A stretch of DNA of 64,000 nucleotides, from NCBI GenBank assembly GCA_958510875.1, contig OY294072.1, positions 1,116,001-1,180,000 of the forward strand, in the 5' to 3' direction. Under the pieces are notes generated by a model. It made no database searches and was not told the DNA's origin. It saw only the letters and a program-made list of their open reading frames with translations. A program made the translations under genes and the position numbers. Of this stretch, positions 1 to 63,719 are shown piece by piece (position 1 is the stretch's first letter; every line of letters starts with the position of its first letter). The DNA is from Endomychus coccineus. Lineage: Eukaryota > Arthropoda > Insecta > Coleoptera > Endomychidae.

Positions 1-60
1 ACAGCAAGCAATATGTGAGGTTAGGGAGAACTTCAATGTAAAGCAGCATCAAAATATTTT

Positions 61-130
61 TCTACACACGGGAATCGAACCCGAGGAATGAAATCCAGAG
101 CCAATTCCTTAACCGCTCAGCTATGGAGGA
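61..130 (-). ncRNA. tRNA-like Pol III module in TIR (E1 left)
   Basis: Read on the minus strand, there is an A-box-like TAGCTGAGCGG and a B-box-like GGTTCGATTCC about 33 nt later, inside a 70-nt tRNA-sized unit. The acceptor arms (TCCTCCA against TGTGTAGA) do not pair properly and I cannot fold a convincing anticodon stem. It is more likely a tRNA-derived promoter or SINE-head relic than a functional tRNA. Confidence 0.5.
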
Positions 131-409
131 ATTGAGAACAAGCGATTTTAATATTGTAGATATAACCGCGGTGTATCCGGGCTGAGTGATAAGTGCGAGT
201 ATATTGCAGTCTATATGATGCAGGTAATAGTTTTACATGACGTTAGTCATGCAGGTATGTCACGAAGCGAGGTATGGAATGTGAGACTTCATAGCGCTAG
301 CCCATAGGGGTTTTGAAATAGTGTTGTTTGTACATGTCGTCAGTCACGTGATTTTTGAAAGAGACCGGGCATTCATCGGAGGTATCATGGGAGGGCTGCT
401 GTTCCTTGA

Positions 410-823
410 ATGCATAGATGGAATGTTATATATAGTATAGAAATGATATCTTCTGCATCTCTCTCAAACGCGATGTTTATAAGGAAATTACTTTCAAAAA
501 CGTTTATTCAAGCTGTCTGTACCTTACTTGATTGCTATATTACAAAATGCGATTTCAATCATCTTAAACATATATGGAAATTATTTTTAGTATACAAAAT
601 GGAGTTGGGAGACTTCAATGGGGTATGGAATGTGAGGTTATACAGATTGTTTATGTATGACGTTAGTCATGTGAATTTGAATGAAGCTGGCGCGATCTCC
701 AACGAGACAGGTGTGTATGTGAGGTTATACAGAGTGTGCAGGTATAATGATGTCTATCACGCAGGTCTTCAGCGAGGTATCTACCTTGCAATGGAATGTG
801 GGGTTGTTTGTACATGCCGTTAG
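410..823 (+). CDS. TIR-encoded small ORF, unknown function (E1 left)
   Basis: 137 codons from an ATG. The same reading frame occurs in all six type A TIR copies in the window (103-164 aa). I recognise no domain. The N-terminal third is hydrophobic; the C-terminal half repeats a V-R-L-Y-R motif twice because the DNA contains an imperfect GAATGTGAGGTTATACAG repeat. In this copy the end differs from the right TIR copy (11599-12093) by a small deletion. It may be a real accessory gene or only a by-product of repeat structure; I lean to unproven. Confidence 0.3.
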   Translation: MHRWNVIYSIEMISSASLSNAMFIRKLLSKTFIQAVCTLLDCYITKCDFNHLKHIWKLFLVYKMELGDFNGVWNVRLYRLFMYDVSHVNLNEAGAISNETGVYVRLYRVCRYNDVYHAGLQRGIYLAMECGVVCTCR

Positions 824-1830
824 TCGCAGGGTTTTGTCTGAGTTATAATGATATCGTACGCGGCGCATTGTCTGCCCCCACAAGTCTTCAATAAGGGGTC
901 ATAACATCTAACATGCGATAGTTTACAAAAATGCTGCTTCTCATAATAGCGATATTATGAAGCGTTTGCAGAAATAACTATTAAATCATCTAAGGACTTT
1001 TTGCTTGATTAGTACTAGCGAGTACAATATTCGTTATAATATCATAAGTATGCATCATTAGCTTACTTATGCGATAAGATTGTGCTAAATCATGTCCAAC
1101 AGCAATGTATTCAACTTGGAATTATCGTAATGATGCGCGCGATCCTTCAATGTTAAAGTAGTTTCATAAGTTATCCGAAAGTAATATGAATATATATAAA
1201 ATGTTTTTCCAAAATTATTTCCGAAGTAAACATAATTCGCTATAATATTCATTCATGTATGTTTCATAAATTATCCGATATAAATCAAATAAGTTTTGTG
1301 GCAGGTTGAACAATATTCACTATCATATTTTGCGGTAGAGCTACAGCTGGTTCGAGAGATAAGAAAGATACGCCGATCACCTTCAAACGCGATGAGAATA
1401 CTTTATTTTAAATCACACATGTAGTATGTATATATTCAAATCATATTGATTGTAAATCGCATAATATGATCCGAAATCTAGCTGCTGCTGGGTGTAGCCC
1501 AATACCTATACAGAATCTAGACGAAGCGGTGTTACGCATCAAGATGATTATTCGAACTGTCTGTACGGCTCGATTGCTATATAACAAAATACATTTTTAA
1601 TCATCTTAAACATATAGATGTGCTAATATAATTTTTTCAGTATGCAAAAATATACTAATAAAACATTTTTCATCGACACACATTTCTTCATAGGATAGTT
1701 AGCTTTTTATAAAATTCAATCAATTTCAATGGGAAACATATATGCGAGGGAGTTTTATAGAGATCGAACTCATTTCCCCAACCACCCAAGAGGTAGAACT
1801 ATGATGAGGAATAGATGTGGATAATGATAA

Positions 1831-2640
1831 TAATCATATGAATATCTTCATAAGCGCTAATCTATATGACATTCAAACACATGCTTCATAAAAGTCTGAA
1901 TATTGAGTAGAGCTATAGTATCTTCTTCATAAGCGATCATTATCAACATTCAGACACTCGTTTAGCACGTGATTCAACAGCCTGGCATCATCGTTCACGA
2001 TCTATGATGGGCTGATGAGGAATAAAATACCAATAATAATTATATAAATATCTCCATTAGCAATCTGTACTATTTTCCTTCACGAGCACGACTTTTACAA
2101 ACTCCATACGTTCGCGTAAAAGATTATAATGATAAACACATTTTTGTTCATGGGTTTACATAATCATATGAATATCTTCATAAGCGCTAATCTATATGAC
2201 ATTCAAACACATGCTTCATAAAAGTCTGAACATTGAGTAGAGCTATAGTATCTTCATAAGCGATCATTATCAACATTCAGACACTTGTTTAGCACGTGAT
2301 TCAACAGCCTGGCATCATCGTTCACGATTTATGATGGGCTGATGAGGAATAAAATACCAATAATAATTATATAAATATCTCCATTAGCAATCTGTACTAT
2401 TTTCCTTCACGAGCACGAGTTTTACAAACTCCATACGTTCGCGTAAAAGATTATAATGATAAACACATTTTTGTTCATGGGTTTACATAATCATATGAAT
2501 ATCTTCATAAGCGCTAATCTATATGACATTCAAACACATGCTTCATAAAAGTCTGAACATTGAGTAGAGCTATAGTATCTTCATAAGCGATCATTATCAA
2601 CATTCAGACACTTGTTTAACACGTGGTTCAACAGCCTGTC
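1831..2640 (+). repeat. about 327-bp tandem repeat, ~2.5 units
   Basis: AATCATATGAATATCTTCATA recurs at about 1833, 2160 and 2487. Each unit carries CATTCAGACACTTGTTTAGCACGTG, which resembles the 20-bp CACGTG array near the ATPase, and a CATCGTTCACGA half-palindrome. The right TIR of E1 carries about one unit less; E3 and E4 carry one to two. Confidence 0.85.
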
Positions 2641-2676
2641 ACCATCGTTCACGAACCATAGTTCGTGAACGATGGT
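2641..2676. repeat. perfect hairpin, 15-bp stem with 6-nt loop
   Basis: ACCATCGTTCACGAA and its exact reverse complement flank CCATAG. The arms match the palindromic core of the 68-bp repeat found near every TIR, so this looks like the same module folded back on itself. Confidence 0.8.
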
Positions 2677-2880
2677 AACCATCATAATGGTTCGATGAGG
2701 ACTCAAACATTGAACAGATGAATCTTTGAGGTTAAATATCTGCTGTAGAAATTACCCCACTTTTATTACCTTTTATTTGAGAATATCGATATTTCCCATG
2801 TAACTAACCTAAAGCTATTTTGTATGCAACATTGCTATCATTTGCGAGCCTACGAGGGCCTGTATGTTGGTCGGGGCTAA

Positions 2881-3039
2881 ATGAATATGTTTGACTATTA
2901 TTACCTGTGGATTTATTTGAGATTCTTCAAGTTTGAGATTGATAACCCACATGAAGAAAGGTGCTTCAACGATTTGATATCAATGAATATTCGTTATTCT
3001 GAATGTGACAACTTTATCAGCTTCAACACTCGAGATTAG
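2881..3039 (+). CDS. small TIR ORF, 52 aa, unknown
   Basis: Starts MNMFDYYYLWIYLRF and ends at TAG 3037. The right TIR holds the counterpart (9786-9968, 60 aa). In E3 and E4 the same frame has TAG in place of the Trp codon near residue 10, so it is open only in E1. No known domain; low confidence that it is expressed. Confidence 0.25.
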   Translation: MNMFDYYYLWIYLRFFKFEIDNPHEERCFNDLISMNIRYSECDNFISFNTRD

Positions 3040-3050
3040 AGAGCATCGCA

Positions 3051-3415
3051 AACTGTCTTATAACCACTAGGTACTACATATTATAATAATTGAAAAGATA
3101 ACATATTTATCTGAATCACCTTTTGAGGAACATTATATGCAAACAGGTAATAAAAACAAAAAGTATATTTATAATTATATTTATTAATTAGACGGTTGCA
3201 TAAATTTTTTGTTTCTAGCTCTGAAACTATATTTATAATTTAGATTACAATCCTGATGGGCTGATCCAGGGACTGTCCTCAACCAAACGACTCGTTCATT
3301 ATCGTGATGTCTTGCGGGAAAGTGAGAGAAATAAAATACCAAAAATAATAATAAAAACATTTATTTAGAAAAATACATTTAGAATTAAAATAATAACATT
3401 ATGATTCATGGTTAT
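3051..3415. other. non-coding 3' flank of capsid gene in E1
   Basis: AT-rich stretch between TIR and MCP stop with A/T runs and AATAAA-like motifs on the minus strand near 3328-3370, plausible polyadenylation signals for the capsid-like gene. No ORF worth calling. Confidence 0.6.
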
Positions 3416-4618
3416 TCACACTAAACTCCGAACTGATCCTGTAATTGGAGAATACTCCATTATACGATCGTTAATGATGATGCAATAAGCCCTGGTGTTT
3501 TTGGGGAAATTCAGGAAACTTTCCATCTCTAGTTTGACGTCAACTGTTGATGACTTTATAGCATCGTTTTGTTTTGAACAGTCAATCACAAAAATTGCTC
3601 TATTCTTGAATGCTATATAATCTACCATGGGTTCGCTTATTATTTTATTTGAAAATGATTTCTGGAAATCATAGTACATCTGGTATGCTTCCACGTATTG
3701 CTGGTCGGTGAAATTCAATTTCATTGCTTCATATGGATAACACTCTGAATTCAAGTATAATTTTACATTTAGCAAGTTTATATTATCGAAATATGCACTG
3801 TGCTTAACAGGATTATTTTTTCGATCAGTTTGGAAAGCTAAAATCACATATCTGGGTCGTTCCAAATTCATTGATGTTTTAACAGCCCAAATGTCACGAG
3901 TGCTCTCCTTCATCAACGGATTTTCATGCAGATCCCAGCTGCGAAATGGAATCAAAATAGGCTTCTCAGCACTCAAATTCTCCAACATTTGAAATTTAAC
4001 CTGATCACTTGGAAACACATGTCGCACTTTTAATGCTATCGTCTTCACATTTATTTTAGCCGTTTTCGTGCCTGTGCTATTAGTATAGCAATCGTTATCG
4101 GTTCGAGACCTTATCAAGCGCAGCTTATGTTTTCCACTCAAACCTTTGTTATAGTCAATGAATAGACCTAGTAGAAAATTCAACGGTATCCATAAATTGA
4201 TTTTATTATTGTAGACTGAACTCAATACATCTTTAAATGACCATCCAGAAATAGCTAGAGGTATAGATTCATGTTTGTCATATGTTAGATAAGCTCTGAT
4301 GGTGCTGACAATACCAGGATCACGTACTTTGTCTATCTCTTTTCCATTCAATTCATAACTAATATATTCGAAGAGAAACGCTCCGAAATTATTCGTTAGT
4401 TTACATTCACCATCACCACTTGCTTCTGGCTGAAATTCTGCCTCGATGAATAAAGCAGACGATGCCAAATCTACCAACACATCTTGTTGATTGATTAATA
4501 TCTCAATTTCATCGCTGTTGCCAAAAGATGTTGTGTGTGGATAGTAGGTATGAGTTTCTTCCCGGATGATGTCTTCAATGAAGTTTGGCTCGTTGAATAT
4601 TTGAAGTTTTTCCGACAT
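3416..4618 (-). CDS. MCP: double-jelly-roll major capsid-like protein (E1)
   Basis: 400 codons starting MSEKLQIFNEPNF; upstream in-frame codons reach a stop without another ATG, so this start is preferred. The sequence resembles the invertebrate double-jelly-roll-like family linked to Polinton-type elements. Visible landmarks are a DEIEILINQQDVLVDL strand, FLFEYISYELNGKEID, and WIPLNFLLGLFIDYN near the middle. It is shorter than the 600-700 aa capsid proteins of many Polintons, so the capsid role is family-based inference. It is the last gene of the minus-strand block. The frame is fully open and nearly identical to the E3 copy. Confidence 0.75.
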   Translation of the reverse strand: MSEKLQIFNEPNFIEDIIREETHTYYPHTTSFGNSDEIEILINQQDVLVDLASSALFIEAEFQPEASGDGECKLTNNFGAFLFEYISYELNGKEIDKVRDPGIVSTIRAYLTYDKHESIPLAISGWSFKDVLSSVYNNKINLWIPLNFLLGLFIDYNKGLSGKHKLRLIRSRTDNDCYTNSTGTKTAKINVKTIALKVRHVFPSDQVKFQMLENLSAEKPILIPFRSWDLHENPLMKESTRDIWAVKTSMNLERPRYVILAFQTDRKNNPVKHSAYFDNINLLNVKLYLNSECYPYEAMKLNFTDQQYVEAYQMYYDFQKSFSNKIISEPMVDYIAFKNRAIFVIDCSKQNDAIKSSTVDVKLEMESFLNFPKNTRAYCIIINDRIMEYSPITGSVRSLV

Positions 4619-4790
4619 TGTAACCAAGGGACTTCAAAAAATTTATATTTTCCAATGATAGTGATGCAGAAGCAACCTTCTCCTTCTTCAATGACAGTGA
4701 TGCAGAAGCAACCTTCTCCCTCGAGCTCGTTGTAGATAATGACTGATGACCACTATGGAGATGTCTTTTATTGCTAAAATCCAAACCCAT
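4575..4790 (-). CDS. uORF overlapping capsid start, 71 aa (E1)
   Basis: ATG in a strong start context (AACATGG). The ORF overlaps the capsid ATG by 44 nt in another frame. It contains a 12-residue direct repeat (EKVASASLSL twice) from a 36-bp DNA duplication; E2 has a single unit. It is retained in all four complete copies. It may encode a small basic, serine-rich peptide or act as a translation-control uORF. No homologue is recognised. Confidence 0.4.
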   Translation of the reverse strand: MGLDFSNKRHLHSGHQSLSTTSSREKVASASLSLKKEKVASASLSLENINFLKSLGYNVGKTSNIQRAKLH

Positions 4791-4870
4791 GTTCTCAAGA
4801 GATGGCTACTGCAACCTTCTCAGTTGAATTCCTTTCATATAATGAGTGGTGGTGAGTATTGGATTATTAT

Positions 4871-5614
4871 TTATTGTTGTGAGCCATAATCCCTAGCGAT
4901 CTTTTTCAATTCCAATCGTATAATAATTTCCTCTCCACGAAAATTTACCGGTTTCCAATTCTGATCTAAAATATTCAGCGTGATGTTATCGAAGGACGTC
5001 TTGCTGATGACCGGTAGATAAATAAGATTCTTCGGCTCTATATCAATGGAAAACCCAGGTGGTACAAGAGGTGAGAACTCATATATCGTATGAGCTATCT
5101 TATTGTTATAATATGCTCCTGCGGTTAAGTTACACTCTACGCGTATAGTTTGAACTTTGATTATGTTTATAGGTCGATCAGATATGTGTAGTTCACGAGA
5201 TGTCAATTTCTTTTTGCTGAATCCCAACAGTTCGCTTATACTATCTTTAGGAATAAAATTCACTTTAAAATCACTCTTCAGCTCTGTGTGTAGAGTGTTG
5301 TTGTTAGATTTTATTGATAATTTCCGGTCACGCTCTTCTTGCTTCACTCCCATCCCACAAACTGTACTTTGTATGAAATCTTCGATGTCTGTCAACTCGT
5401 AGGACCCCGTAGGTATAGTAACTACTTTTTCCTCACCCTTCACATCTTCATAATAAAATTCATTAAAACCTTCTTCAATGTTCGGGATGCTATTGTACGT
5501 ATGCAAACCAACAAGTGCGATAGAATAATATGAATGAGGATCTAGTTCTATAGGTGGGTGAAAATCTACAGATAAACGAGAGCTCTTAGCCGTGATAGTG
5601 AACGTCTGAGACAT
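4871..5614 (-). CDS. penton/minor-capsid-like protein (E1)
   Basis: 247 aa beginning MSQTFTITAKSSRL. An upstream in-frame ATG exists here but is lost in E3 (ATA), so the MSQ start is conserved. The protein is beta-rich with an F-x-P-P-I-E-L-D motif followed by YYSIALVGLHTYNSIPNI. It sits between the PLA2/protease region and the capsid gene, the usual place of the vertex (penton) protein in Polintons. The assignment rests on position and size; I cannot name a domain. A TATATAAATA box lies just upstream. The frame is intact. Confidence 0.6.
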   Translation of the reverse strand: MSQTFTITAKSSRLSVDFHPPIELDPHSYYSIALVGLHTYNSIPNIEEGFNEFYYEDVKGEEKVVTIPTGSYELTDIEDFIQSTVCGMGVKQEERDRKLSIKSNNNTLHTELKSDFKVNFIPKDSISELLGFSKKKLTSRELHISDRPINIIKVQTIRVECNLTAGAYYNNKIAHTIYEFSPLVPPGFSIDIEPKNLIYLPVISKTSFDNITLNILDQNWKPVNFRGEEIIIRLELKKIARDYGSQQ

Positions 5615-5650
5615 GATTGATGAAAACTTCATCAACAATCTATTTATATA

Positions 5651-5869
5651 CTAATAAATGTTAGTCGACCAATTCCAAATATAACTGGCTACAATTATAA
5701 GTGTTATATTGCATGAAATATCGTGAAGACGGCAAGCTTTATCGAATGAATTGATACCCTGAATCTCCTCAACCGTTCTCCTAATTTTGCCCCTGGTATT
5801 GATTTGAAGTTCAAACGGGAGCTTGTTTATAAGCGTATTGAGAACAACTTCTCCCACGCACGCTTCCAT
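5651..5869 (-). pseudogene. PLA2-like gene remnant with internal deletion (E1)
   Basis: The 72 codons start like the E2 PLA2-like gene but jump, right after the catalytic HDIS motif, into sequence from the end of the protease region. About 0.6 kb relative to E2 (rest of PLA2, the membrane-active segment and the protease) is missing. The calcium-loop segment is also replaced: the Y-x-F-C-G-P-G stretch is absent. The HD pair remains, but an active enzyme is unlikely. The same junction occurs in E4, so the deletion predates their spread. Confidence 0.8.
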
Positions 5870-6062
5870 ACAGACTGATGAGAATTCAAGATTGCACCGT
5901 TATTTAACGAGGGGTGGGAGGAAGACCAAAGATCTCAAAATAATTTTTTTTTTTTTTATTAATTATCTCAATACAAAAGACTTAAGTATAATCTTAACAA
6001 TATATCTTTCAAATATCTCAATCTTGACTCTTGATTCATCGTCCTAGTCGTATTGCATATTC
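5870..6062. other. deletion scar region between PLA2 and integrase remnants (E1)
   Basis: Contains a T-rich tract (about 5944-5957) and sequence matching the E2 non-coding stretch 19440-19620. The integrase catalytic core found at this place in E2 is missing. Confidence 0.7.
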
Positions 6063-6167
6063 CTACCCCTTCCACCTATATTGAAGTCCTTTTATGTATG
6101 TTCGACGCTGGTAAAAGTTCTTTCTTCTGTGCTCATGAAGCTCATGCAAAACTTGTTCTCTACTCAT
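6063..6167 (-). pseudogene. integrase N-terminal remnant, 34 aa (E1)
   Basis: Starts MSREQVLHELHEH like the E2 integrase (18417) and keeps its basic N-terminal stretch, then stops. The whole DDE core and chromodomain are deleted. E3 and E4 carry the same deletion plus a further frameshift. Confidence 0.8.
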
Positions 6168-6184
6168 CTTATCAATGTGGAAAT

Positions 6185-6838
6185 CTAGTGTAGAATTAAT
6201 TTTTTGGGTATATTCACAGGATTTGGAGATATACGTTTCACAGAGGCCTGCTTTGATGTTGTGGATGATGAGGGTCTCTTCTTAGAAGGTTCCACAGATG
6301 TCATCCGTCGTTCTAACGCCTCCACTTTACTAGTAATGTCATTTAGACGCATGTTCATACTGTTAAATGTGTTATTGATCTCTTCCAATTCATTTCTGTT
6401 CTCCCTCACACTATCACTGATTGTTTTATACTCTGATTTTATATAGATTCCCATTTCATTATATTTATTCTGAATGTCCATCAGATGTTTATCAATGTTG
6501 AGAATAACCTTATCATTCGTTAAATTATGTTCATCCAGATCCTTGTTGATATCTTTGACCAAATTATCAACCCTAACATTGAAGGTATCTTTAAGACTGG
6601 TTTCCGTTTTCAGATTCAGTTTGTGTGTTAATTTATCAACATATACTTTATTTGCAACATCTCCATCATCATTCGGTGATTTTACGTTGCACAATCTACG
6701 ATTTTCCATATCATAACTTCCATCGCTCGTTAGGAATAATCCTTGTCCGTGAACTTGTTTGAAATTATTATTAAATACATTTGTATCATATATCCACATG
6801 GAAGAGGAGGCTCTGCCAAACTTATCCATTGAAACCAT
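6185..6838 (-). CDS. coiled-coil fibre-like protein (E1)
   Basis: 217 aa. The N-terminal ~65 residues include SSMWIYDTNVF and RRLCNVKSPNDDGDVANK followed by VYVDKL, a pattern seen in trimeric phage and virus fibre proteins before a coiled coil. Residues ~80-175 are heptad-like, rich in L/I/N/E/K, and the C-terminus is basic and serine-rich (KKRPSSSTTSK). I infer a trimeric spike or fibre-like virion protein. Its ATG overlaps the DUF8207 stop by 17 nt, so the two probably share a transcript. The frame is intact. Confidence 0.55.
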   Translation of the reverse strand: MVSMDKFGRASSSMWIYDTNVFNNNFKQVHGQGLFLTSDGSYDMENRRLCNVKSPNDDGDVANKVYVDKLTHKLNLKTETSLKDTFNVRVDNLVKDINKDLDEHNLTNDKVILNIDKHLMDIQNKYNEMGIYIKSEYKTISDSVRENRNELEEINNTFNSMNMRLNDITSKVEALERRMTSVEPSKKRPSSSTTSKQASVKRISPNPVNIPKKLILH

Positions 6839-7877
6839 CTTTATAACTGTGATGAATTTGTCTTACACCTGGTTTTTGTTCAATTACCCCTGCCTCTATC
6901 AATTCTTCTATTATAGAGATAATCTCATTATGGTTACCGGCATGCGAGGATGCAACAAGAAGTCTCAGTCTATCCACCATTCTGTTAACGTCATTCCAAT
7001 AAACATATTCGATAGGTTTCTCGTTATATTCAAGCATATCATTTTTGATATATGCACTTCCAGTGTATGTTTTGGCTCTTGGTCTTTTCATGGAATTAAT
7101 CAAAGGTTTCAGTACATGTTTGTATTTCACTGTGTATCTTATTCGATCAGCTGGATCGTTATTACGTCTATGGGCACTAGTCATTTCCATCATTTGACTG
7201 TAATTTTTCCCATCTTCCACAGTGTAAGTATCAGGTAGAACATCTTTGTAAAATATCAAATTATACAGTCCTGTGGTACCCTTGAACGGAGTACCCTTGA
7301 TAATTATATTACTCTCACTATCAATTTCTATAGGTTGATTACCCATGAACCATTTGTCTAAAGTTGAATTATATTGCAAACCCATTCTATCATCGTATTT
7401 CTTGACATCATCATCCAATAGGAATCCTTCCAAGTAATAACGTGCTAATGTGGGGTATTGTTGCAGAAACTCCTCTGTAGCCGCTGCATTATCTTTCTTA
7501 TGTTTTCTGAATTCTTCACGAATCTGATCGATAGTAGGTTCGGGTGTAAACACATCCTCCTCAGTATCTTGGGGGTTATATACGAATTCTTCACCTTCAG
7601 TTACAATATTTGGGATTGGTATGTTCTCCATTTGTGTTGCTGTAGAAACAATACTTTTAGGTTTAACCAACGAATGTTGTTTCATTATTTCAGCATTTTT
7701 CGCAATTTCCTCCAGAGGTTTAGATACATTCCTGAACATGTTATCTAGAATCTCATCATTTTCAGCTTTACCCAATTTCACAGCCATATATTTTTTCCTC
7801 AAAACGTTTGCTAACTCCCAAATTTTTTTCTTCAATTGTTGTTTTTCCCTTAGCATGTTACTCACACCCACGTCCAT
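6822..7877 (-). CDS. DUF8207-like protein (E1, only intact copy)
   Basis: 351 aa starting MDVGVSNMLREKQQ. The N-terminal third is charged and helical; the C-terminal half (from about residue 165) carries GLYNLIFYKDVLPDTYTVED, RRNNDPADR and KHVLKPLINSMKRP, the pattern I associate with DUF8207 proteins of invertebrate Polinton-type elements. Molecular function is unknown; its place next to the ATPase and fibre suggests a virion or morphogenesis role. E3 and E4 carry a stop at codon 97 and E2 has two frameshifts, so this is the only full-length frame in the window. A TATATATAC box lies about 30 nt upstream. Confidence 0.75.
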   Translation of the reverse strand: MDVGVSNMLREKQQLKKKIWELANVLRKKYMAVKLGKAENDEILDNMFRNVSKPLEEIAKNAEIMKQHSLVKPKSIVSTATQMENIPIPNIVTEGEEFVYNPQDTEEDVFTPEPTIDQIREEFRKHKKDNAAATEEFLQQYPTLARYYLEGFLLDDDVKKYDDRMGLQYNSTLDKWFMGNQPIEIDSESNIIIKGTPFKGTTGLYNLIFYKDVLPDTYTVEDGKNYSQMMEMTSAHRRNNDPADRIRYTVKYKHVLKPLINSMKRPRAKTYTGSAYIKNDMLEYNEKPIEYVYWNDVNRMVDRLRLLVASSHAGNHNEIISIIEELIEAGVIEQKPGVRQIHHSYKDGFNG

Positions 7878-7919
7878 GCTGAGCGGGTTGTCTATTTCAA
7901 ATGAAAGTATATATACATG

Positions 7920-8644
7920 TTAGATGTATATATAACTATCAAAACCTTTGCGATAACGTCCTTTATTCATATCACAGTCTTTGTTTATCATAAGGAATCC
8001 ATATTTATCTTTCCAACATACGCTACATATCTCTTTGAATTTTTCGAGTGACATGTCGGTACTTACATGATCGGTGAATATATGCTTCAAATTGAGCTCA
8101 TCCTGTTTGAAAATAATCAAGCAATTGGCATTGTCGCGCAATCCATGTTTTGGACATTTAGCAAAAGACTGACAAAGATAGAAACTATCAATTGAGTTGT
8201 GTCTCCCTCTTGAAAAATAAGCACGAATTTTCTGCTGTTTCTCAAACATCACGTCATCGAATATTATTATCGAATTAGGCCTCGCTTCTGTGGGGTCTAT
8301 GACCTCATCACTTTCGGTACAAGGAAAATATCCAAGACCCTCAATTTTCTTCAATGTCTCCTTTAGTAACTGGTATTTGGTTGGTGTAAAGACTTTGAAT
8401 ATATGTACACGTTTTCAAATTTCAGGCCGTTAGCATCCAACAATAGAGATAACATCACATTTGTTTTCCCACAATTACTTGGACCACAGATTATTGTTCG
8501 TAAAGTATTAGGCAGCAAAGAGCTGTGACGTTGTGGTTGTTCAACATTCTCATTGCTTGACCCTAAGTTCATAATACTCAACGAGTCTTTTTGCTTAACA
8601 ATCTTTATCATGCCTGAAGGCGAATCGAAATCATACTGGAACAT
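7920..8644 (-). pseudogene. ATP: A32/FtsK-HerA-type packaging ATPase, frameshifted (E1)
   Basis: Matches the intact 241-aa ATPase of E2/E3. The Walker A GPSNCGKT is in the upstream part (8363-8644) and the Walker B SIIIFDDV in the downstream part (7920-8354). One T is missing in the TATTT run near 8368 compared with TATTTT in E3, which splits the frame. Everything else is conserved, so the loss is recent or an assembly error. Confidence 0.9.
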
Positions 8645-8722
8645 ATGTTAATAAGCATTTGTTTATATACTAGATGATGATGTTATATTGTGTATGTCTG
8701 ATCACGCGGTTAGGTACTTCTA

Positions 8723-8725
<3 letters not shown>

Positions 8726-8774
<49 letters not shown>
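8726..8774. repeat. (CT)n microsatellite
   Basis: About 24 CT dinucleotides between the ATPase promoter and the CACGTG array in E1 only; the other copies have ordinary sequence here. Confidence 0.95.
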
Positions 8775-8778
<4 letters not shown>

Positions 8779-8808
8779 TCAGGTATCAAATACATGTTAA
8801 ATAGGTAT

Positions 8809-9386
8809 GAATGTTGAAACACGTGTCTGAAACACGTGTCTGAATGTTGAAACACGTGTCTGAAACACGTGTCTGAATGCTGAAACACGTGTCTGAATGT
8901 TGAAACACGTGTCTGGAACACGTGTCTGAATGCTGAAACACGTGTCTGAATGCTGAAACACGTGTCTGAAACACGTGTCTGAATGCTGAAACACGTGTCT
9001 GAATGTTGAAACACGTGTCTGAATGTTGAAACACGTGTCTGAAACACGTGTCTGAATGCTGAAACACGTGTCTGAATGCTGAAACACGTGTCTGAATGCT
9101 GAAACACGTGTCTGAATATTGAAACACGTGTCTGAAACACGTGTCTGAATGCTGAAACACGTGTCTGAATGCTGAAACACGTGTCTGAATATTGAAACAC
9201 GTGTCTGAAACACGTGTCTGAATGCTGAAACACGTGTCTGAATGCTGAAACACGTGTCTGAATGTTGAAACACCTGTCTGAAACACGTGTCTGAATGCTG
9301 AAACACGTGTCTGAATGCTGAAACACGTGTCTGAATGTTGAAACACGTGTCTGAAACACGTGTCTGAAACACGTGTCTGAATGTTA
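8809..9386. repeat. CACGTG minisatellite array (E1)
   Basis: Alternation of a 13-bp core (GAAACACGTGTCT) with or without a 7-bp spacer (GAATGCT/GAATGTT), giving 20-bp and 13-bp steps. Each core has the 8-bp palindrome ACACGTGT with an E-box CACGTG. The array is free of stops in all three minus-strand frames, which I attribute to repeat composition. It lies upstream of the ATPase in all four complete elements and could be an enhancer or replication-associated array. Confidence 0.9.
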
Positions 9387-54209: not shown

Positions 54210-54215
54210 TCGGCT

Positions 54216-54502: not shown

Positions 54503-54585
54503 CTAATGAGGAATAAAATGTGAATAATCATAATGTTTGTAATACATTCATGCACATGTTTTATCGCATGATTCAACACATGCTT

Positions 54586-55100
54586 TAACATTCAGACACG
54601 TGTTTCAGACATGTGTTTCAACATTCAGACATGTGTTTCAACATTCAGACACGTGTTTCAGCATTCAGACACGTGTTTCAGCATTCCGACACGTGTTTCA
54701 GACACGTGTTTCAGCATTCAGACACGTGTTTCAACATTCAGACACGTGTTTCAGACACGTGTTTCAACATTCAGACACGTGTTTCAACATTCAGACACGT
54801 GTTTCAGCATTCAGACACGTGTTTCAGACACGTGTTTCAACATTCAGACACGTGTTTCAGCATTCAGACACGTGTTTCAGACACGTGTTTCAACATTCAG
54901 ACACGTGTTTCAGCATTCAGACACGTGTTTCAGACACGTGTTTCAGCATTCAGACACGTGTTTCAGACACGTGTTTCAACATTCAGATACGTGTTTCAGC
55001 ATTCAGACACGTGTTTCAGACACGTGTTTCAGCATTCAGACACGTGTTTCAGACATTCAGACACGTGTTTCAGCATTCAGACACGTGTTCCAGCATTCAT
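54586..55100. repeat. CACGTG minisatellite array (E4)
   Basis: About 515 bp, oriented opposite to E1/E3. Includes a variant 14-bp join (CAGACATTCAGACACG) at 55047-55062 and a few ACATGTGT variants at the distal end. Confidence 0.9.
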
Positions 55101-55195
55101 ACCTATTTAACATGTATTTGATACCTGATTTTGACAGAAGCGTAGAAGCACCTAACCGCGTGATCCGACATACACAATATAACATCATCATCTAG

Positions 55196-55203
55196 TATAT
55201 AAA
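55196..55203 (+). promoter_or_regulatory. TATA box of ATPase gene (E4)
   Basis: TATATAAA, ending 17 nt before the ATG at 55221. Same place in E1 and E3; TAAATAAA in E2. Confidence 0.5.
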
Positions 55204-55220
55204 CAAATGCTTATTAACAT

Positions 55221-55940
55221 ATGTTCCAGTATGATTTCGATTCGCCTTCAGGCATGATGAAGATTGTTAAGCAAAAAGACTCGTTGAGTATTATGAACTT
55301 AGGGTCAAGCAATGAGAATGTTGAACAACCACAACGTCACAGCTCTTTGCTGCCTAATACTCTACGAACAATAATCTGTGGTCCAAGTAATTGTGGGAAA
55401 ACAAATGTGATGTTATCTCTATTGTTAGATGCAAACGGTCTGAAATTTGAAAACGTGTACATATATTCAAAGTCTTCACACCAGCCAAAATACCAGTTAC
55501 TAAAGGAGACATTGAAGAAAATTGAGGGGCTTGGATATTTTCCTTGTACCGAAAGTGATGAGGTCATAGACCCCACAGAAGCGAGACCTAATTCGATAAT
55601 AATATTCGATGACGTGATGTTTGAGAAACAGCAGAAAATTCGTGCTTATTTTTCAAGAGGGAGACACAACTCAATTGATAGTTTCTATCTTTGTCAGTCT
55701 TTTGCTAAATGTCCAAAACATGGGTTGCGCGACAATGCCAATTGCTTGATTATTTTCAAACAGGATGAGCTCAATTTGAAGCATATATTCACCGATCATG
55801 TAAGTACCAACATGTCACTCGAAAAATTCAAAGAGATATGTAGCGTATGTTGGAAAGATAAATATGGATTCCTTATGATAAACAAAGACTGTGATATGAA
55901 CAAAGGACGTTATCGCAAAGGTTTTGATAGTTATATCTAA
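55221..55940 (+). CDS. ATP: packaging ATPase (E4)
   Basis: 239 aa, two residues shorter than E2/E3 because the last codons changed to a stop (SYI end). Walker motifs intact; VSTNMSLEKF replaces VSTDMSLEKF. Confidence 0.9.
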   Translation: MFQYDFDSPSGMMKIVKQKDSLSIMNLGSSNENVEQPQRHSSLLPNTLRTIICGPSNCGKTNVMLSLLLDANGLKFENVYIYSKSSHQPKYQLLKETLKKIEGLGYFPCTESDEVIDPTEARPNSIIIFDDVMFEKQQKIRAYFSRGRHNSIDSFYLCQSFAKCPKHGLRDNANCLIIFKQDELNLKHIFTDHVSTNMSLEKFKEICSVCWKDKYGFLMINKDCDMNKGRYRKGFDSYI

Positions 55941-55951
55941 CATCTAACATG

Positions 55952-55960
55952 TATATATAC
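55952..55960 (+). promoter_or_regulatory. TATA box of DUF8207 gene (E4)
   Basis: TATATATAC, 29 nt before the ATG at 55990; conserved in all four elements (for example 16671-16679 in E2). Confidence 0.5.
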
Positions 55961-55989
55961 TTTCATTTGAAATAGACAACCCGCTCAGC

Positions 55990-57045
55990 ATGGACGTGGG
56001 TGTGAGTAACATGCTTAAAGAAAAACAACAATTGAAGAAAAAAATTTGGGAGTTAGCAAACGTTGTGAGGAAAAAATATATGGCTGTGAAATTGGGTAAA
56101 GCTGAAAATGATGAGATTCTAGATAATATGTTCAGGAATGTATCTAAACCTCTGGAGGAAATTGCGAGAAATGCTGAAATAATCAAACAAAATTCGTTGG
56201 TTAAACCTAAAAGTATTGTTTCTACAGCAACACAAATGGAGAACATACCAATCCCAAATATTGTAACTGAAGGTGAATAATTCGTATATAACCCCCAAGA
56301 TACTGAGGAGGATGTGTTTACACCCGAACCTACTATCGATCAGATTCGTGAAGAATTCAGAAAACATAAGAAAGATAATGCAGCGGCTACAGAGGAGTTT
56401 CTGCAACAATACCCCACATTAGCACGTTATTACTTGGAAGGATTCCTATTGGATGATGATGTTAAGAGATATGATGATAAAATGGGTTTGCAATATAATT
56501 CAACTTTAGACAAATGGTTCATGGGTAATCAACCTATAGAAATTGATAGTGAGAGTAATATAATTATCAAGGGTACTCCGTTCAAAGGTACCACAGGACT
56601 GTATAATTTGATATTTTACAAAGATGTTCTACCTGATACTTACACTGTGGAAGATGGGAAAAATTACAGTCAAATGATGGAAATGACTAGTGCCCATAGA
56701 CGTAATAACGATCCAGCTGATCGAATGAGATACACAGTGAAATACAAACATGTACTGAAACCTTTGATTAATTCCATGAAAAAACCCAGAGCCAAAACAT
56801 ACACTGGAAGTGCATATATCAAAAATGATATGCTTGAATATAACGAGAAGCCTATCGAATATATTTTTTGGGATGACGTTAACGAAATGGTGGATAGACT
56901 GAGACTTCTTGTTGCATCCTCGCATGCCGGTAACCATAATGAGATAATCTCTATAATAGAAGAATTGATAGAGGCAGGGGTAATTGAACAAAAACCTGGT
57001 GTAAGACAAATTCATCTCAGTTATAAAGATGGTTTCAATGGATAA
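55990..57045 (+). pseudogene. DUF8207-like gene with stop at codon 97 (E4)
   Basis: TAA after VTEGE exactly as in E3. The downstream part (56314-57045) is open and carries the DUF8207-like region. Independent substitutions elsewhere (KRYDDKMGLQ) show that time has passed since the shared change. Confidence 0.85.
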
Positions 57046-57682
57046 GTTTGGCAGAGCCTCCTCTTCCATGTGGATATATGATACAAATGTATTTAATAAT
57101 AATTTCAAACAAGTTCACGGACAAGGATTATCCCTAACGAGCGATGGAAGTTATGATATGGAAAATCGTAGATTGTGTAACGTAAAATCACCGAATGATG
57201 ATGGAGATGTTGCAAATAAAGTATATGTTGATAAATTAACACACAAACTGAATCTGAAAACGGAAACCAGTCTTAAAGATACCTTCAATGTTAGGGTTGA
57301 TAATTTGATCAAAGATATCAACAAGGATCTGGATGAACATAACTTAACGAATGATAAGGTTATTCTCAACATTGATAAACATCTGATGGACATTCAGAAT
57401 AAATATAATGAAATGGGAATCTATATAAAATCAGAGTATGAAACAATCAGTGATAGTGTGAGGGAGAACAGAAATGAATTGGAAGAGATCAATAACACAT
57501 TTAACAGTATGAACATGCGTCTAAATGACATTACTAGTAAAGTGGAGGCGTTAGAACGACGGATGACATCTGTGGAACCTTCTAAGAAGAGACCTTCATC
57601 ATCCACAACATCAAAGCAGGCCTCTGTGAAACGTATATCTCCAAATCCTGTGAATATACCCAAAAAATTAATTCTACACTAG
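57029..57682 (+). CDS. coiled-coil fibre-like protein (E4)
   Basis: 217 aa, intact, almost identical to E1 (GLSLTSDGSY for GLFLTSDGSY; SEYETISD for SEYKTISD). Confidence 0.55.
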   Translation: MVSMDKFGRASSSMWIYDTNVFNNNFKQVHGQGLSLTSDGSYDMENRRLCNVKSPNDDGDVANKVYVDKLTHKLNLKTETSLKDTFNVRVDNLIKDINKDLDEHNLTNDKVILNIDKHLMDIQNKYNEMGIYIKSEYETISDSVRENRNELEEINNTFNSMNMRLNDITSKVEALERRMTSVEPSKKRPSSSTTSKQASVKRISPNPVNIPKKLILH

Positions 57683-57699
57683 ATTTCCACATTGATAAG

Positions 57700-57774
57700 A
57701 TGAGTGAAAACAAGTTGTTCATGAGCTTCATGAGCACAGAAGAAAGAACTTTCACCAGCGTCGAACATACATAA
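57700..57774 (+). pseudogene. integrase N-terminal remnant, frameshifted (E4)
   Basis: 24 codons, same frameshift as E3; catalytic core absent. Confidence 0.75.
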
Positions 57775-57987
57775 AAGGACTTCAATATAGGTGGAAGGGG
57801 TAGGAATATACAATACGACTAGAACGATGAATCAAGAGTCAAGATTGAGATATTTGAAACATATATTGTTAAGATTATACATAAGTCTTTTGTATTGAGA
57901 AAATTAATAAAAAATTATTTTGAGATCTTTGGTCTTCCTCCCACCCTCGTTAAATAACGGTGCAATCTTGAATTCTCACCAGTCTGT

Positions 57988-58227
57988 ATGGAAGCGTGCG
58001 TGGAAGAAGTTGTTCTCAATACGCTTATAAACAAGCTCCCGATTGAACTTCAAATCAATACCAGGGGCAAAATTAGAAGAACGGTTGAGGAGATTCAGGG
58101 TATCAATTCATTCGATAAAGCTTGCCGTCTACACGATATTTCATGCAATATAACACTTATAATTGTAGCCAGTTATATTTGGAATTCCTCTCTAACTCTT
58201 CAGTTGTGCTCGACTAACATTTATTAG
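57988..58227 (+). pseudogene. PLA2-like gene remnant (E4)
   Basis: 79 codons with the same junction after HDIS as E1, and a slightly longer tail because 21 bp more of the protease end remain. Confidence 0.8.
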
Positions 58228-58263
58228 TATATAGATAGATTGTTGGTAATGTTTTCATCAATC

Positions 58264-59007
58264 ATGTCTCAGACGTTCACTATCACGGGTAAGAGCTCCC
58301 GCTTATCTGTAGATTTTCACCCACCTATAGAACTAGATCCTCATTCGTATTATTCTATAGCACTTGTTGGTTTGCATACGTACAATAGCATCCCGAACAT
58401 TGAAGAAGGTTTTAATAAATTTTATTATGAAGATGTGAAGGGTGAGGAAAAAGTAGTCACTATACCCACGGGGTCCTACGAGTTGACAGACATCGAAGAT
58501 TTCATACAAAGTACAGTTTGTGGGATAGGAGTGAAGCAAGAAGAGCGTGACCGGAAATTATCAATAAAATCTAACAACAACACTCTACACACAGAGCTGA
58601 AGAGTGATTTTAAAGTGAATTTTATTCCTAAAGATAGTATAAGCGAACTGTTGGGATTCAGCAAAAAGAAATTGACATCTCGTGAAATACACGTATCTGA
58701 TCGACCTATAAACATAATCAAAGTTCAAACTATACGCGTAGAGTGTAACTTAACCGCGGGAGCATATTATAACAATAAGATAGCTCATACGATATATGAG
58801 TTCTCACCTCTTGTACCACCTGGGTTTTAAATTGATATAGAGCCGAAGAATCTTATTTATCTACCGGTCATCAGCAAGACGTCCTTCGATAACATCACAC
58901 TGAATATTCTAGATCAGAATTGGAAACCGGTAAATTTTCGTGGAGAAGAAATTATTATACGATTGGAATTGAAAAAGATCGTTAGGGATTATACCTCACA
59001 ACAATAA
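58264..59007 (+). pseudogene. penton-like gene with internal stop (E4)
   Basis: Open for 188 codons, then TAA at 58828-58830 in place of a Ser codon after PPGF; the remaining 59 codons stay in frame. Confidence 0.85.
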
Positions 59008-59087
59008 ATAATAATCCAATACTCACCACCACTCATTATATGAAAGAAATTCAACTGAGAAGGTTGCAGTAGCCATCGCTTGAGAAC

Positions 59088-59303
59088 ATGGGTTTGGATT
59101 TTAGCAATAAAAGACATCTCCATAGTGGTCATCAGTCATTATCTACAACGAGCTCGAGGGAGAAGGTTGCTTCTGCATCACTGTCATTGAAGAAGGAGAA
59201 GGTTGCTTCTGCATCACTATCATTGGAAAATATAAATTTTTTGAAGTCCCTTGGTTACAATGTCGGAAAAACTTCAAATATTCAACGAGCCAAACTTCAT
59301 TGA
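59088..59303 (+). CDS. uORF overlapping capsid start, 71 aa (E4)
   Basis: Same peptide as E1 and E3, two repeat units, strong start context. Confidence 0.4.
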   Translation: MGLDFSNKRHLHSGHQSLSTTSSREKVASASLSLKKEKVASASLSLENINFLKSLGYNVGKTSNIQRAKLH

Positions 59304-60441
59304 AGACATCATCCGGGAAGAAACTCATACCTACTATCCACACACAACATCTTTTGGCAACAGCGAAGAAATTGAGATATTAATCAATCAACAAGATGTG
59401 TTGGTAGATTTGGCATCGTCTGCTTTATTCATCGAGGCAGAATTCCAGCCAGAAGCAAGTGGTGATGGTGAATGTAAACTAACGAATAATTTCGGAGCGT
59501 TTCTCTTCGAATATATTAGTTATGAATTGAATGGAAAAGAGATAGACATAGTACGTGATCCTGGTATTGTCAGCACCATCAGAGCTTATCTAACATATGC
59601 CAAACATGAATCTATACCTCTAGCTATTTCTGGATGGTCATTTAAGGATGCATTGAGTTCAGTCTACAATAATAAAATCAATTTATGGATACCGTTGAAT
59701 TTTCTACTAGGCCTATTCATTGACTATAACAAAGTCTTGAGTGGAAAACATAAGCAGCGCTTGATAAGGTCTCGAACCGATAACGATTGCTATACCAATA
59801 GCACAGGTACGAAGAGGGCTAAAATAAATGTGAAGACGATAGCATTAGAAGTGCGACATGTGTTTCCAAGTGATCAGGTTAAATTTCAAATGTTGGAGAA
59901 TTTGAGTGCTGAGAAGCCTATTTTGATTCCATTTCGCAGCTGGGATCTGCATGAAAATCCGTTGATGAAGGAGAGCACTCGTGACATTTGGGCTGTTAAA
60001 ACTTCAATGAATTTGGAACGTCCCAGATATGTGATTTTAGCTTTCCAAACTGATCGAAAAAATAATCCTGTTAAGCACAGTGCATATTTCGATAATATAA
60101 ACTTGCTAAATGTAAAATTATACTTGAATTCAGAGTGTTATCCATATGAAGCAATGAAATTGAATTTCACCGACCAGCAATACGTGGAAGCATACCAGAT
60201 GTACTATGATTTCCAGAAATCATTTTCAAATAAAATAATAAGCGAACCCATGTTGGATTATATAGCATTCAAGAATAGAGCAATTTTTGTGATTGACTGT
60301 TCAAAACAAAACGATGCTATAAAGTCATCAACAGTTGACGTCAAACTAGAGATGGAAAGTTTCCTGAATTTCCCCAAAAACACCAGGGCTTATTGCATCA
60401 TCATTAACGATCGTATAATGGAGTATTCTCCAATTACATGA
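59260..60441 (+). CDS. MCP: double-jelly-roll capsid-like protein, 7 residues short (E4)
   Basis: 393 aa from MSEKLQIF; TGA replaces the Gly codon after YSPIT, removing the last seven residues. Otherwise as E3 (NSEEIEILINQ for NSDEIEILINQ; HKQRLIRS for HKLRLIRS). Function may be kept. Confidence 0.72.
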   Translation: MSEKLQIFNEPNFIEDIIREETHTYYPHTTSFGNSEEIEILINQQDVLVDLASSALFIEAEFQPEASGDGECKLTNNFGAFLFEYISYELNGKEIDIVRDPGIVSTIRAYLTYAKHESIPLAISGWSFKDALSSVYNNKINLWIPLNFLLGLFIDYNKVLSGKHKQRLIRSRTDNDCYTNSTGTKRAKINVKTIALEVRHVFPSDQVKFQMLENLSAEKPILIPFRSWDLHENPLMKESTRDIWAVKTSMNLERPRYVILAFQTDRKNNPVKHSAYFDNINLLNVKLYLNSECYPYEAMKLNFTDQQYVEAYQMYYDFQKSFSNKIISEPMLDYIAFKNRAIFVIDCSKQNDAIKSSTVDVKLEMESFLNFPKNTRAYCIIINDRIMEYSPIT

Positions 60442-60817
60442 TCAGTTCGGAGTTTAGTGTGAAGAACCATGAATCATAATGTTATTATTTTAATTCTAAA
60501 TGTATTTTTCTAAATAAACGTTATTATTATTATTTTTGGTATTTTATTTATCTCACTTTCCCGCAAGACATCACAATAATGAACGAGCCGTTGGTAAAGT
60601 ACAGTCCCTTGGATCAACCCATCAGGAATGTAATCTAAATTATAAATATCGCTTCAGAGTTAGAAACAAAAAATTTATGTTACTATCTAATTAATAAATA
60701 TAAATATACTTTTGTTTTATTACCTGTTTGCATATAATGTTCCTCAAAAGTGATTCAGATTATTATGTTATCTTTTCAATTATTATAATATGTAGTAGTA
60801 GTGGTTATAAGACAGTT
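60442..60817. other. 3' flank of capsid gene (E4)
   Basis: AATAAACGTTATTATTATT at about 60512 is a probable polyadenylation region. No gene. Confidence 0.6.
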
Positions 60818-62612
60818 TGCGGTAAATATTCTCTCTTATCTCGAGTGTTGAAGCCGATAAAGTTGTCACATTCAGAATAGCGAATATGAAAATAATAAAT
60901 AACCTATCAATTCGTTGAAGCTTCTTTCTTCAATCTCAAACTTGAAGAATCTCAAATAAATCTAGAGGTAATAATAGTCAAACATATTCATTTAGCACCG
61001 ACCAACACACAGGCCCTCGTAGGCTCGCAAATGATAACAATGTTGCATACAAAATAGCTTTAGGCAATAAGCCGTTACATGGGAGATATCGATATTCTCA
61101 AATAAAAGGTAATAAAAGTGGGGTACTTTCTACAGCAGATATTTAACCTCAAAGATTCATCTGTTCAATGTTTGAGTCCTCATCGAACCATCATAGTTCG
61201 TGAACGATGATGCCAGGCTGTTGAATCACGTGCTTGAATGTCATATAGATTAGCGTTTATGAAGATATTCATATGATTATGTAAACCCGTGAACAAAAAT
61301 GTGTTTATCATTATAATCTTTTACGCGAACGTATGGAGTTTGTAAAAGTCGTGCTCGTGAAGGAAAATAGTACAGCTTGCTAATGGAGATATTGATATAA
61401 TTATTATTGGTATTTTATTCCTCATCAGCCCATCATAGTTCGTGAACGATGATGCCAGGCGGTTGAATCACGTGCTAAACAAGTGTCTGAATGATGATAA
61501 TGATCGCTTATGAAGAAGATACTATAGCTCTACATAATATTCAGACTTTTATGAAGCACGTGTTTGAATGTCGTATAGATTAGCGCTTATGAAGATATTC
61601 ATATGGTTATTATCCACATCTATTCCTCATCATAGTTCTACCTCTTGGGAGGTTGGGGAAATGAGTTCGATCTCTATAAAACTCCCTCGCATATATGTTT
61701 CCCATTGAAATTGATTGAATTTTATAAAAAGCCAACTATCCTATGAAGAAATGTGTGTCGATGAAAAATGTTTTATTAGTATATTTTTGTATACTGAAAA
61801 AATTATATTAGCACATCTATATGTTTAAGATGATTAGAAAAATGTATTTTGTTATATAGCAATCGAGCTGTACAGACAGTTCGAATAATCATCGTGATGC
61901 GTAACACCGCTTCGTCTAGATTCTGTATAGGGCTACACCCCAGCAGCAGCTAGATTTCGGATCATATTATGCGATTTACAATCAATATGATTCGAATATA
62001 TACATACTATATGTGTGATTTAAAATAAAGTATTCTCATCGCGTTTGAAGGTGATCGGCGTATCTTTCTTATCTCTCTCGAGCGAGCTGTAGCTCTACCG
62101 CAAAATATGTTAGTGAATATTGTTCAACCTTATTTGAATTATATAGGCTAATTTATGTAACATACATGAATGAATATTATAGCGAATTATGTTTACTTCG
62201 GAACTAATTTTGGAAAAACATTTAATATATTCATATTACTTTCGGATAACTTATGAAACTACTTTAACATTGAAGGATCGCGCATCATTACGATAATTCC
62301 AAGTTGAATACATTGCTGTTGGACATGATTTAACACAACCTTATCGCACAAGTAAGCTAATGATACATACTTATAATATTATAACGAATATTGTACTCGC
62401 TAGTACTAATCAAGCAAAAAGTCCTTAGATGATTTAATAGTTATTTCTGCAAACGCTTCATAATATCGCTATTATAAGAAGCAGCATTTTTGTAAACTAT
62501 CACATGTTAGATGTTATTGTTATTGAAGACTTGTGGGGGCAGACAATGCGCCGCGTACGATATCATTATAACTCAGACAAAACCCTGCGACTAACGGCAT
62601 GTACAAACAACC

Positions 62613-62981
62613 TCACATTTCATTGAAGGCTCCTGCAAGGTAGATACCTCGCTGAAGACCTGCGTGATAGACATCATTATACCTGCACACTCTGTATAAC
62701 CTCACATACACACCTGTCTCGTTGGAGATCGCGCCAGCTTCATTCAAATTCACATGAATAACGTCATACATAAACAATCTGTATAACCTCACATTCCATA
62801 CCCCATTGAAGTCTCCCAACTCCATTTTGTATAATAAAAATAATTTCCATATATGTTTAAGATGATTGAAATTGCATTTTGTAATATAGCAATCAAGTAA
62901 GGTACAGACAGCTTGAATAAACGTTTTTGAAAGTAATTTCCTTATAAACATCGCGTTTGAGAGAGATGCAGAAGATATCAT
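62613..62981 (-). CDS. TIR ORF, 122 aa (E4 right)
   Basis: As 39440-39808 with two replacements (LLYKMELGD for LVYKMELGN). Confidence 0.3.
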   Translation of the reverse strand: MISSASLSNAMFIRKLLSKTFIQAVCTLLDCYITKCNFNHLKHIWKLFLLYKMELGDFNGVWNVRLYRLFMYDVIHVNLNEAGAISNETGVYVRLYRVCRYNDVYHAGLQRGIYLAGAFNEM

Positions 62982-63293
62982 TTCTATACTATATATAACA
63001 TTCCATCTATGTATTCAAGGAACAGCAGCCCTCCCATGATACCTCCGATGAATGCCCGGTCTCTTTCAAAAATCACGTGACTGACGACATGTACAAATAA
63101 CACTATTTCAAAACCCCTATGGGCTAGCGCTATGAAGTCTCACATTCCATACCTCGCTTCGTGACATACCTGCATGACTAACGTCATGTAAAACAATTAC
63201 CTGCATCATATAGACTGCAATATACTCGCACTTATCACTCAGACCGGGTACCCTGCGGTTATATCTACAACATTAAAATCGCTTGTTCTCAAT

Positions 63294-63363
63294 TCCTCCA
63301 TAGCTGAGCGGTTGAGGAATTGGCTTTGGATTTCATTTCTCGGGTTCGATTCCCGTGTGTAGA
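63294..63363 (+). ncRNA. tRNA-like Pol III module (E4 right)
   Basis: Same boxes as the other copies, GGTTGAGG instead of GGTTAAGG after the A-box. Confidence 0.5.
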
Positions 63364-63719
63364 AAAATATTTTGATGCTGCTTTACATTGAAGTTATCCC
63401 TAACCTCACATATTGCTTGCTGTCCACCTTGAACGATCAAGCCCTAGCCGTCTACCCGGTAACACCTAGAGGTTAGAGGCGAGACCACACCCTAACCGTT
63501 TACCCAGGCCGGTAATACAGGGTCAGTACTTACCGATACCTGTCTGGGCATACCGCGCATGCACGAGTGTATCACTGGTTGCCTACATCTGATAAGGCTC
63601 TCTGTCTGGCCGCCCCAAGTAAGGGGATACCTACTAATAACATTCATTGAGAAAGACACATTTTGATAGTACATCATTTAGAACTAAAATTATAACATTA
63701 TGATTCATCACCTGGTTCT

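Follow-up and report, generated by a model that had tools for sequence, protein, structure and literature searches.

Polinton-like elements of the beetle Endomychus coccineus that lack integrase and protease and retain virion genes, probably as capsid-carrying satellites

It is debated whether Polintons travel as transposons or in particles, and virophages and other satellite viruses combine capsid genes of their own with dependence on a helper. Here we describe elements related to Polintons/Mavericks (Eupolintoviridae, adintoviruses) in a stretch of 64,000 nucleotides of the beetle Endomychus coccineus (assembly GCA_958510875.1, contig OY294072.1, positions 1,116,001 to 1,180,000 of the forward strand; hereafter the window, C7:1116001-1180000 in our genome coordinates), which lies on a 5.3-Mb contig of a 906-Mb genome. 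In the relevant passages of PMC8097293, spread of Mavericks as particles is argued from purifying selection, and endogenous retroviruses are described as complemented in trans, with env drifting neutrally (citing Belshaw 2005). Passages of PMC4028283 report nine Polintons without a major capsid protein (MCP) gene that are also without protease (PRO) and packaging ATPase genes, and PMC11071296, in a passing mention, gives Meldvirus genomes as carrying adenovirus-class virion proteins with no recognizable DNA polymerase (PolB) or integrase. A chromodomain integrase in Polintons is likewise named in a passage of PMC11071296, and the family name Eupolintoviridae in one of PMC12567637.

Five virus-like elements, partly nested, were recognized in the window by self-comparison and by reading of their ends (E1 to E5). 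E1, E3 and E4, together with their kin elsewhere that lack an integrase, are called type A; E2 and E5 are type B, and C denotes the integrase-bearing sister form of type B outside the window. Complete Polintons are designated D, and intervals bounded by a tip sequence F. In composition, type A is a C-like interior minus integrase and protease, joined to ends related to those of D and F. The explanation that we favor, with a probability of roughly 0.55, is that type A descends from a Polinton/adintovirus-like element, is non-autonomous and still encodes a capsid; its enzymes would be received in trans, and its virion genes would be under selection. Type A shares with Polintons a 6-bp target site duplication (TSD), terminal inverted repeats (TIRs) of the AGT type, a double jelly-roll capsid protein and a packaging ATPase, but it has neither the retrovirus-like integrase, which is present in E2 and C, nor the adenain/Ulp1-type protease. 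No PolB was found in the window, where the longest frame has 403 amino acids and a six-frame PF03175 search gave no match among the matches listed, decayed remnants not having been sought frame by frame; nor was a PolB frame found in the pieces of C that were read, L029 and L030 included. The module-wise loss resembles that of the virion-module-less Polintons in the passages of PMC4028283 and runs in the opposite direction, since in type A the capsid and ATPase genes persist and it is the integrase that has gone. Meldvirus, as far as the passing mention goes, is similar in having virion genes without PolB or integrase, and type A differs from it by many integrated copies, TSDs, a common deletion and candidate helpers in one genome. 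The retroviruses complemented in trans in PMC8097293 also draw some genes from elsewhere, but type A reverses their pattern, in that the enzymes are gone and the shell genes stay. Virophages serve as an analogy only, as the candidate helpers here are resident relatives and not giant viruses. In the open literature searched, subscription papers being outside its scope, no report was found of a Polinton lineage that lacks integrase and has its virion genes under selection.

The loss of the enzymes can be followed against E2, whose virion-gene stretches match type A interiors at about 94-99% identity. The E2 integrase gene (18417..19340, + strand; rve and a weak chromodomain match) is interrupted in type A by a jump from E2 position 18496 to 19439, with 18497-19438 gone. 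Across the 14 rows shown, of which three duplicate E1 and 11 are independent, the filler at this junction is identical except at 0-2 positions per 100 bases, and five further type A rows align only to E2 18469 yet resume at the identical 19439. This common junction across the copies examined indicates that one ancestral copy lost the integrase. What is left of the protein amounts to amino acids 1-33 at most in the 16 independent elements (approximately 6069..6167, - strand, in E1, from a 33-residue match in its duplicates L010-L012; 47184..47282, - strand, in E3; 57699..57797, + strand, in E4), and the protein identity of this remnant to E2 is only 60-73%. A second deletion, in the phospholipase and protease genes, takes type A from E2 19798 to 20681-20686, or, in E3 and three other copies, from 19630 to 20743. 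Of the 270 phospholipase residues, 12 of the 16 elements retain the first 69-76 (in E1 the first 69 codons, 5714..5899, - strand); of the 130 protease residues, only the last 25 survive, in 9 of the elements, including E4 (both remnants at 57958..58214, + strand) and not E1 or E3. A sequence-only reading of this DNA had proposed a shared integrase deletion leaving about 34 codons and a loss of the protease; both hold, at about 33 codons with one junction, and the phospholipase loss, which it had not named, is added.

Its description of three insertions with Polinton-type ends is also confirmed. E1 (1..12792, - strand; TSD AATGAG) begins before the window, so that the outer part of its left TIR (1..2354, 98.2% identical to 10142-12502) lies beyond it; the right TIR spans 10142..12792, by self-comparison and end reading. 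E4 (38786..63635, + strand; TSD AATAAC) sits in E5, just 3' of the E5 capsid gene, and itself holds E3 (41585..54209, - strand; TSD TCGGCT). The tips read AGTAGG../..CCTACT, or AGTAGGG../..CCCTACT in E3, and the left tip of E4 deviates as AGAAGG (AGA, not AGT). TIR arms are 98.2-99.5% identical across 2.3-2.8 kb, and the element calls are therefore not due to chance. Of the six type A elements whose two ends could both be read, five show matching 6-bp TSDs; the elements at C1:188M and C1:57.7M, whose end windows held no recognized tip, stand outside this count.

In order to sample type A across the genome, a 601-base TIR query was used, and the best 40 of 1073 candidate places, by TIR similarity, were scored. 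Among 20 regions retrieved beside such places and compared, 15 single ones and the two halves of one element (L020, L021) bear virion genes around the integrase position, and two others (L017, L018) are more heavily deleted; full integrase, far from marking most copies, is absent, sequence beyond amino acid 33 being found in 0 of the 20 regions beside type A ends. After the E1 duplicates (L010-L012) were dropped, 16 independent elements including E1, E3 and E4 remained, and all five virion genes are free of stops and frameshifts in five of them. The observation that many ATPase, fibre, penton-like and capsid genes are still open is borne out, apart from one frameshift in the E1 ATPase, one stop in P of E3 and, in E4, a single stop in each of the P, penton-like and capsid genes; the other virion genes of these three elements are open. 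At 36 of the 40 TIR places the nearest C-type integrase among those listed lies 121 kb or more away; at the remaining four, on contig C7, it is that of E2 beside E1 or of a duplicate of that pair. Over 2192 common columns, arm-to-arm divergence within an element is 0.09% for the copy at C5:29.5M, 0.18% for E3, 0.82% for E4 and 0.91% for E1, low values from which it follows that recent type A insertions exist. Over the same columns E1, E4 and C5:29.5M differ from one another by 0.96-3.74%, and E3 differs from the others by 12.6-13.5%, which places its ends in another TIR subfamily, joined to the same deleted interior.

Pairwise ratios of nonsynonymous to synonymous rates (dN/dS) between the type A copies of the window (0.24-0.40) were set aside as proof of selection because they mix evolution before and after insertion with recombination, and variants were instead split into those seen in a single copy and those shared by at least two type A copies. 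The 16 type A rows were compared with 7-9 of 10 sampled C elements per gene and E2, using a kappa of 3 and p-values that treat sites as independent. Single-copy variants private to type A are neutral (64 synonymous, 198 nonsynonymous, 8 stops; omega 1.11, p 0.53), and private variants shared among copies are constrained (31 synonymous, 23 nonsynonymous, 2 stops; omega 0.27, p 1.5e-6), or, without gene P, more strongly so (27 and 12; omega 0.16). Omega is similarly low, at 0.32, for shared variants that occur also in C or E2 (34 synonymous, 30 nonsynonymous) and 0.28-0.31 for variants within C; single-copy variants also found in C or E2 (20 and 4) were set apart. By gene, omega in the shared class is 0.05 for capsid, 0.04 for ATPase, 0.26 for penton-like, 0.36 for fibre-like and 0.99 for P. 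The dN/dS of type A is thus not near 1 in all genes, and the structural genes show neither the loss nor the neutral decay that marks classical non-autonomous elements, P alone looking neutral; with 5 of 16 elements fully open, the earlier view that type A reverses the usual direction of loss stands. The variant spectra suggest that an integrase-less lineage kept spreading with its virion genes under selection, although recombination with integrase-bearing relatives could make part of the signal.

Several observations weigh against this interpretation. Gene P is without constraint (shared class 4 synonymous, 11 nonsynonymous), the fibre-like gene is not significant alone (p 0.14), and two of the private shared variants are stops. 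When seven further C capsid rows were added (15 instead of 8 non-A rows), two of the eight private shared capsid variants were found outside type A, reducing that class from 7 synonymous and 1 nonsynonymous to 5 and 1. The type A copy on contig C8 has no matching TSD, and E1 differs from C5:29.5M by 0.96-1.23%, hardly more than its own arms differ. Type A and C rows are, moreover, intermixed in the gene trees of ATPase, fibre and P, so that recombination could import constrained variants into type A. The strongest rival builds on this mixing, and holds that selection acts only on integrase-bearing C and B elements, type A moving as plain DNA with virion genes conserved through recombination with C. 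It gains from the E3 ATPase, for which dS is 0.007 against E2 but 0.077 against E1 and 0.068 against E4, and from the 34 synonymous and 30 nonsynonymous shared variants present in C or E2 as well. It is harder to reconcile with private shared variants that are as constrained as the shared ones present also in E2 or the C elements sampled (0.27 versus 0.32, Fisher p 0.71), with the genes flanking the deletion, fibre and penton, where private shared variants fall below neutral (12 synonymous, 10 nonsynonymous; omega 0.30, p 0.006), and with 11 sites without overlap between A and C/E2; we consider it unlikely, though a serious competitor.

Another way to account for the data is that the true source is an autonomous type A, equipped with a full integrase, that escaped sampling; the copies seen would be its defective products. 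The sample was confined to the places of highest TIR similarity, and the 60-73% protein identity of the integrase remnant to E2 is in keeping with such a source; the elements that hold the region nevertheless carry one common deletion and not many, integrase is missing from every region compared, and the listed C-type integrases are remote from type A ends or explained by E2 beside E1 or its duplicate, all of which makes this source improbable. That type A copies are dead and have been multiplied by host DNA duplication is suggested by the E1 block, which occurs four times on contig C7 as a duplicated segment (at about 1.116, 1.868, 2.536 and 3.071 Mb), but TSDs and flanks differ at five loci and the spectrum of shared variants is non-neutral, so that this possibility is already contradicted and very improbable.

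If type A does depend on enzymes in trans, candidate sources are abundant in the genome. A search for C-type integrase, in which 129 of 7475 candidate places were scored (E2 and one E2 duplicate among them), gave genes 96-100% identical to that of E2, stop-free at 127 of the 129. Ten C neighborhoods were looked at in part and seven more for the capsid gene only: C elements carry ATPase, P, fibre, integrase, phospholipase, protease, penton-like and capsid genes, few of which are not open (one capsid frameshift in the first ten; among the other seven, two capsid genes with stops and one with gaps), and at the expected place one element has no penton or capsid and another only a partial capsid. 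PolB was scored at 76 or more candidate loci elsewhere, and the closest pair of PolB and integrase among the 76 PolB loci and 129 integrase places listed is 42 kb apart. Both occur together in a D element at about C1:238646634-238659584 (tips AGTAGTAAGAG; TSD GCCATG), which encodes PolB, integrase, ATPase, phospholipase, a protease-like frame and a double jelly-roll capsid protein. Comparison of the TIR tips separated type A from the relatives first thought to help it, as A and B/C tips have only AGTAG in common and about 54 bp are shared with D and F instead. A 54-bp copy of the type A tip lies inside D, between the integrase and ATPase genes (score 40, against at most 14 in 20 shuffles), and was seen in two D elements, the second read in part (L058:1425-1478, L061:2081-2134). 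The stretch recurs at 93-95% in 11 other places, six of which pair in inverted order as three F intervals. One of these, C1:139512299-139529546 (17,248 bp), holds a PolB, with 0.0014 expected by chance per such interval and three examined; no listed PolB falls inside C1:202446413-202459967 or C92:288946-319800, and no integrase lies within the three among the listed C-type or D-query matches, the F sequence itself not having been read. The sequence-only reading had proposed mobilization with the help of type B. Spread without integrase and selection after its loss are upheld; help from type B is not, as the P, fibre-like and capsid genes of E2 are disrupted, E2 yielded no PolB, and its tips share only AGTAG with type A.

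Type A is likely a capsid-carrying, enzyme-less satellite within a layered Polinton community. Its history would begin with one ancestral copy, whose terminal repeats differed from those of the related B and C elements, that lost integrase and phospholipase/protease. Its descendants would have inserted as integrase-less units with 6-bp duplications (seen at five loci), with capsid, ATPase and penton-like genes under purifying selection as the lineage moved, on statistical grounds and subject to the caveat of recombination. Integrase may be provided in trans by the many intact C-type genes, by a Polinton family with type-A-like tips, or by both, and DNA polymerase by PolB-bearing Polintons. Enzymes, needed in small amounts, would be supplied by resident copies; virion genes may be kept because type A travels from cell to cell in particles, or because its genomes favor shell proteins of their own. 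How the layers are ordered is a more tentative matter, and we offer only as a possibility that D (perhaps F) elements are complete with polymerase, C elements have lost polymerase and retain integrase and virion genes, and A elements, also without integrase and protease and with D/F-like tips, are evolving as particle-forming satellites. If true, this would amount to a dispersed, multi-component virus that shares enzymes via the host genome. An integrase-less lineage with selected capsid and ATPase would separate two functions, shell genes that cannot be borrowed and enzymes that can, and type A would provide a testable animal example of virus-like satellites parasitizing endogenous relatives.

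The gene order of B and C is ATPase (Pox_A32-like), P, fibre-like coiled coil, integrase, phospholipase A2-like, protease, penton-like and capsid (PF21738), followed in E2 by an MSV199 open reading frame (ORF) and a membrane-like ORF labeled from its sequence, both of which are present in E5 as well. In E1, all on the - strand, lie the genes of the double jelly-roll major capsid protein (3416..4627; PF21738, E 1.2e-87), a penton-like or minor capsid candidate labeled from its position (4871..5638; the E3 copy matches its D counterpart weakly, E 0.055), the 217-amino-acid fibre-like protein (6185..6838), protein P (6822..7877, an open frame of 351 amino acids with no family name) and the packaging ATPase (7920..8645, start approximate; Pox_A32-like via the E3 copy). 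The corresponding E3 genes, also on the - strand, are capsid (44699..45910), penton-like (46154..46921), fibre-like (47299..47952) and ATPase (49034..49759; Pox_A32, E 1.5e-5), and those of E4, on the + strand, are ATPase (55221..55940, open across the compared part), fibre-like (57029..57682) and capsid (59251..60441). The names "fibre" and "penton" reflect gene position and earlier usage, and the functions are putative: the model of the E3 fibre-like protein is a low-confidence coiled coil (pLDDT, a model confidence score, 53.7), to which the E1 and E3 labels refer, and that of the penton-like protein is unusable (pLDDT 40.3). The C protease frame matches Peptidase_C5 weakly (E 0.022) but shares 44% identity with the D frame, which contains a GSHW stretch that we take to be a mark of adenain-like proteases. 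E2 (13962..26655, + strand; TSD GATGAC) is inserted in a Ty3/gypsy element, and encodes a phospholipase A2-like protein whose frame ends early (19621..20130; PF08398), a protease region broken into matches in two frames (20381..20769; family call from the C frame), a capsid protein with one stop in its gene (21920..22984) and an MSV199-domain ORF (23321..23974), all on the + strand. E5 (34826..38785, - strand) is split by E4 and resumes at 63636. Among the 120 best of 523 capsid relatives, those named to species are mostly from beetles and one is from an ant, in line with a beetle as host.

Some further observations concern sequences in or around these elements. The region L022 (C2:101242713) has a type A end followed by MSV199 and membrane-like genes in place of virion genes, with a gypsy insertion; it was rejected as the polymerase segment of a two-segment arrangement, as its 1635-codon frame is a gypsy Gag-Pol by Pfam. 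L047, with a PolB frame of 1267 codons, was likewise rejected as a relative of the window, the shared DNA being only simple repeat and matches of 39-45 bases. A further group of integrases comprises 84 matches at 40-43% to that of D, 83 of them stop-free. The type A TIRs of all three elements in the window contain a putatively coding frame of 103-164 amino acids (410-823, 11599-12093, 39440-39808, 42563-42874, 52927-53238 and 62613-62981). Arrays of 20/13-bp units at 8827-9401, 49881-50594 and 54571-55099 give rise to long, probably spurious frames, and similar arrays occur near C ends. The ORF listed from 12716 has its start inside the E1 TIR; Ty3/gypsy pieces (gag, reverse transcriptase, integrase), split by E2, lie at 12793-13961 and 26656-28627; and a tandem satellite with a 219-bp unit, broken at 29.9-31.6 kb, occupies 28982-34825, E5 beginning at its right edge.

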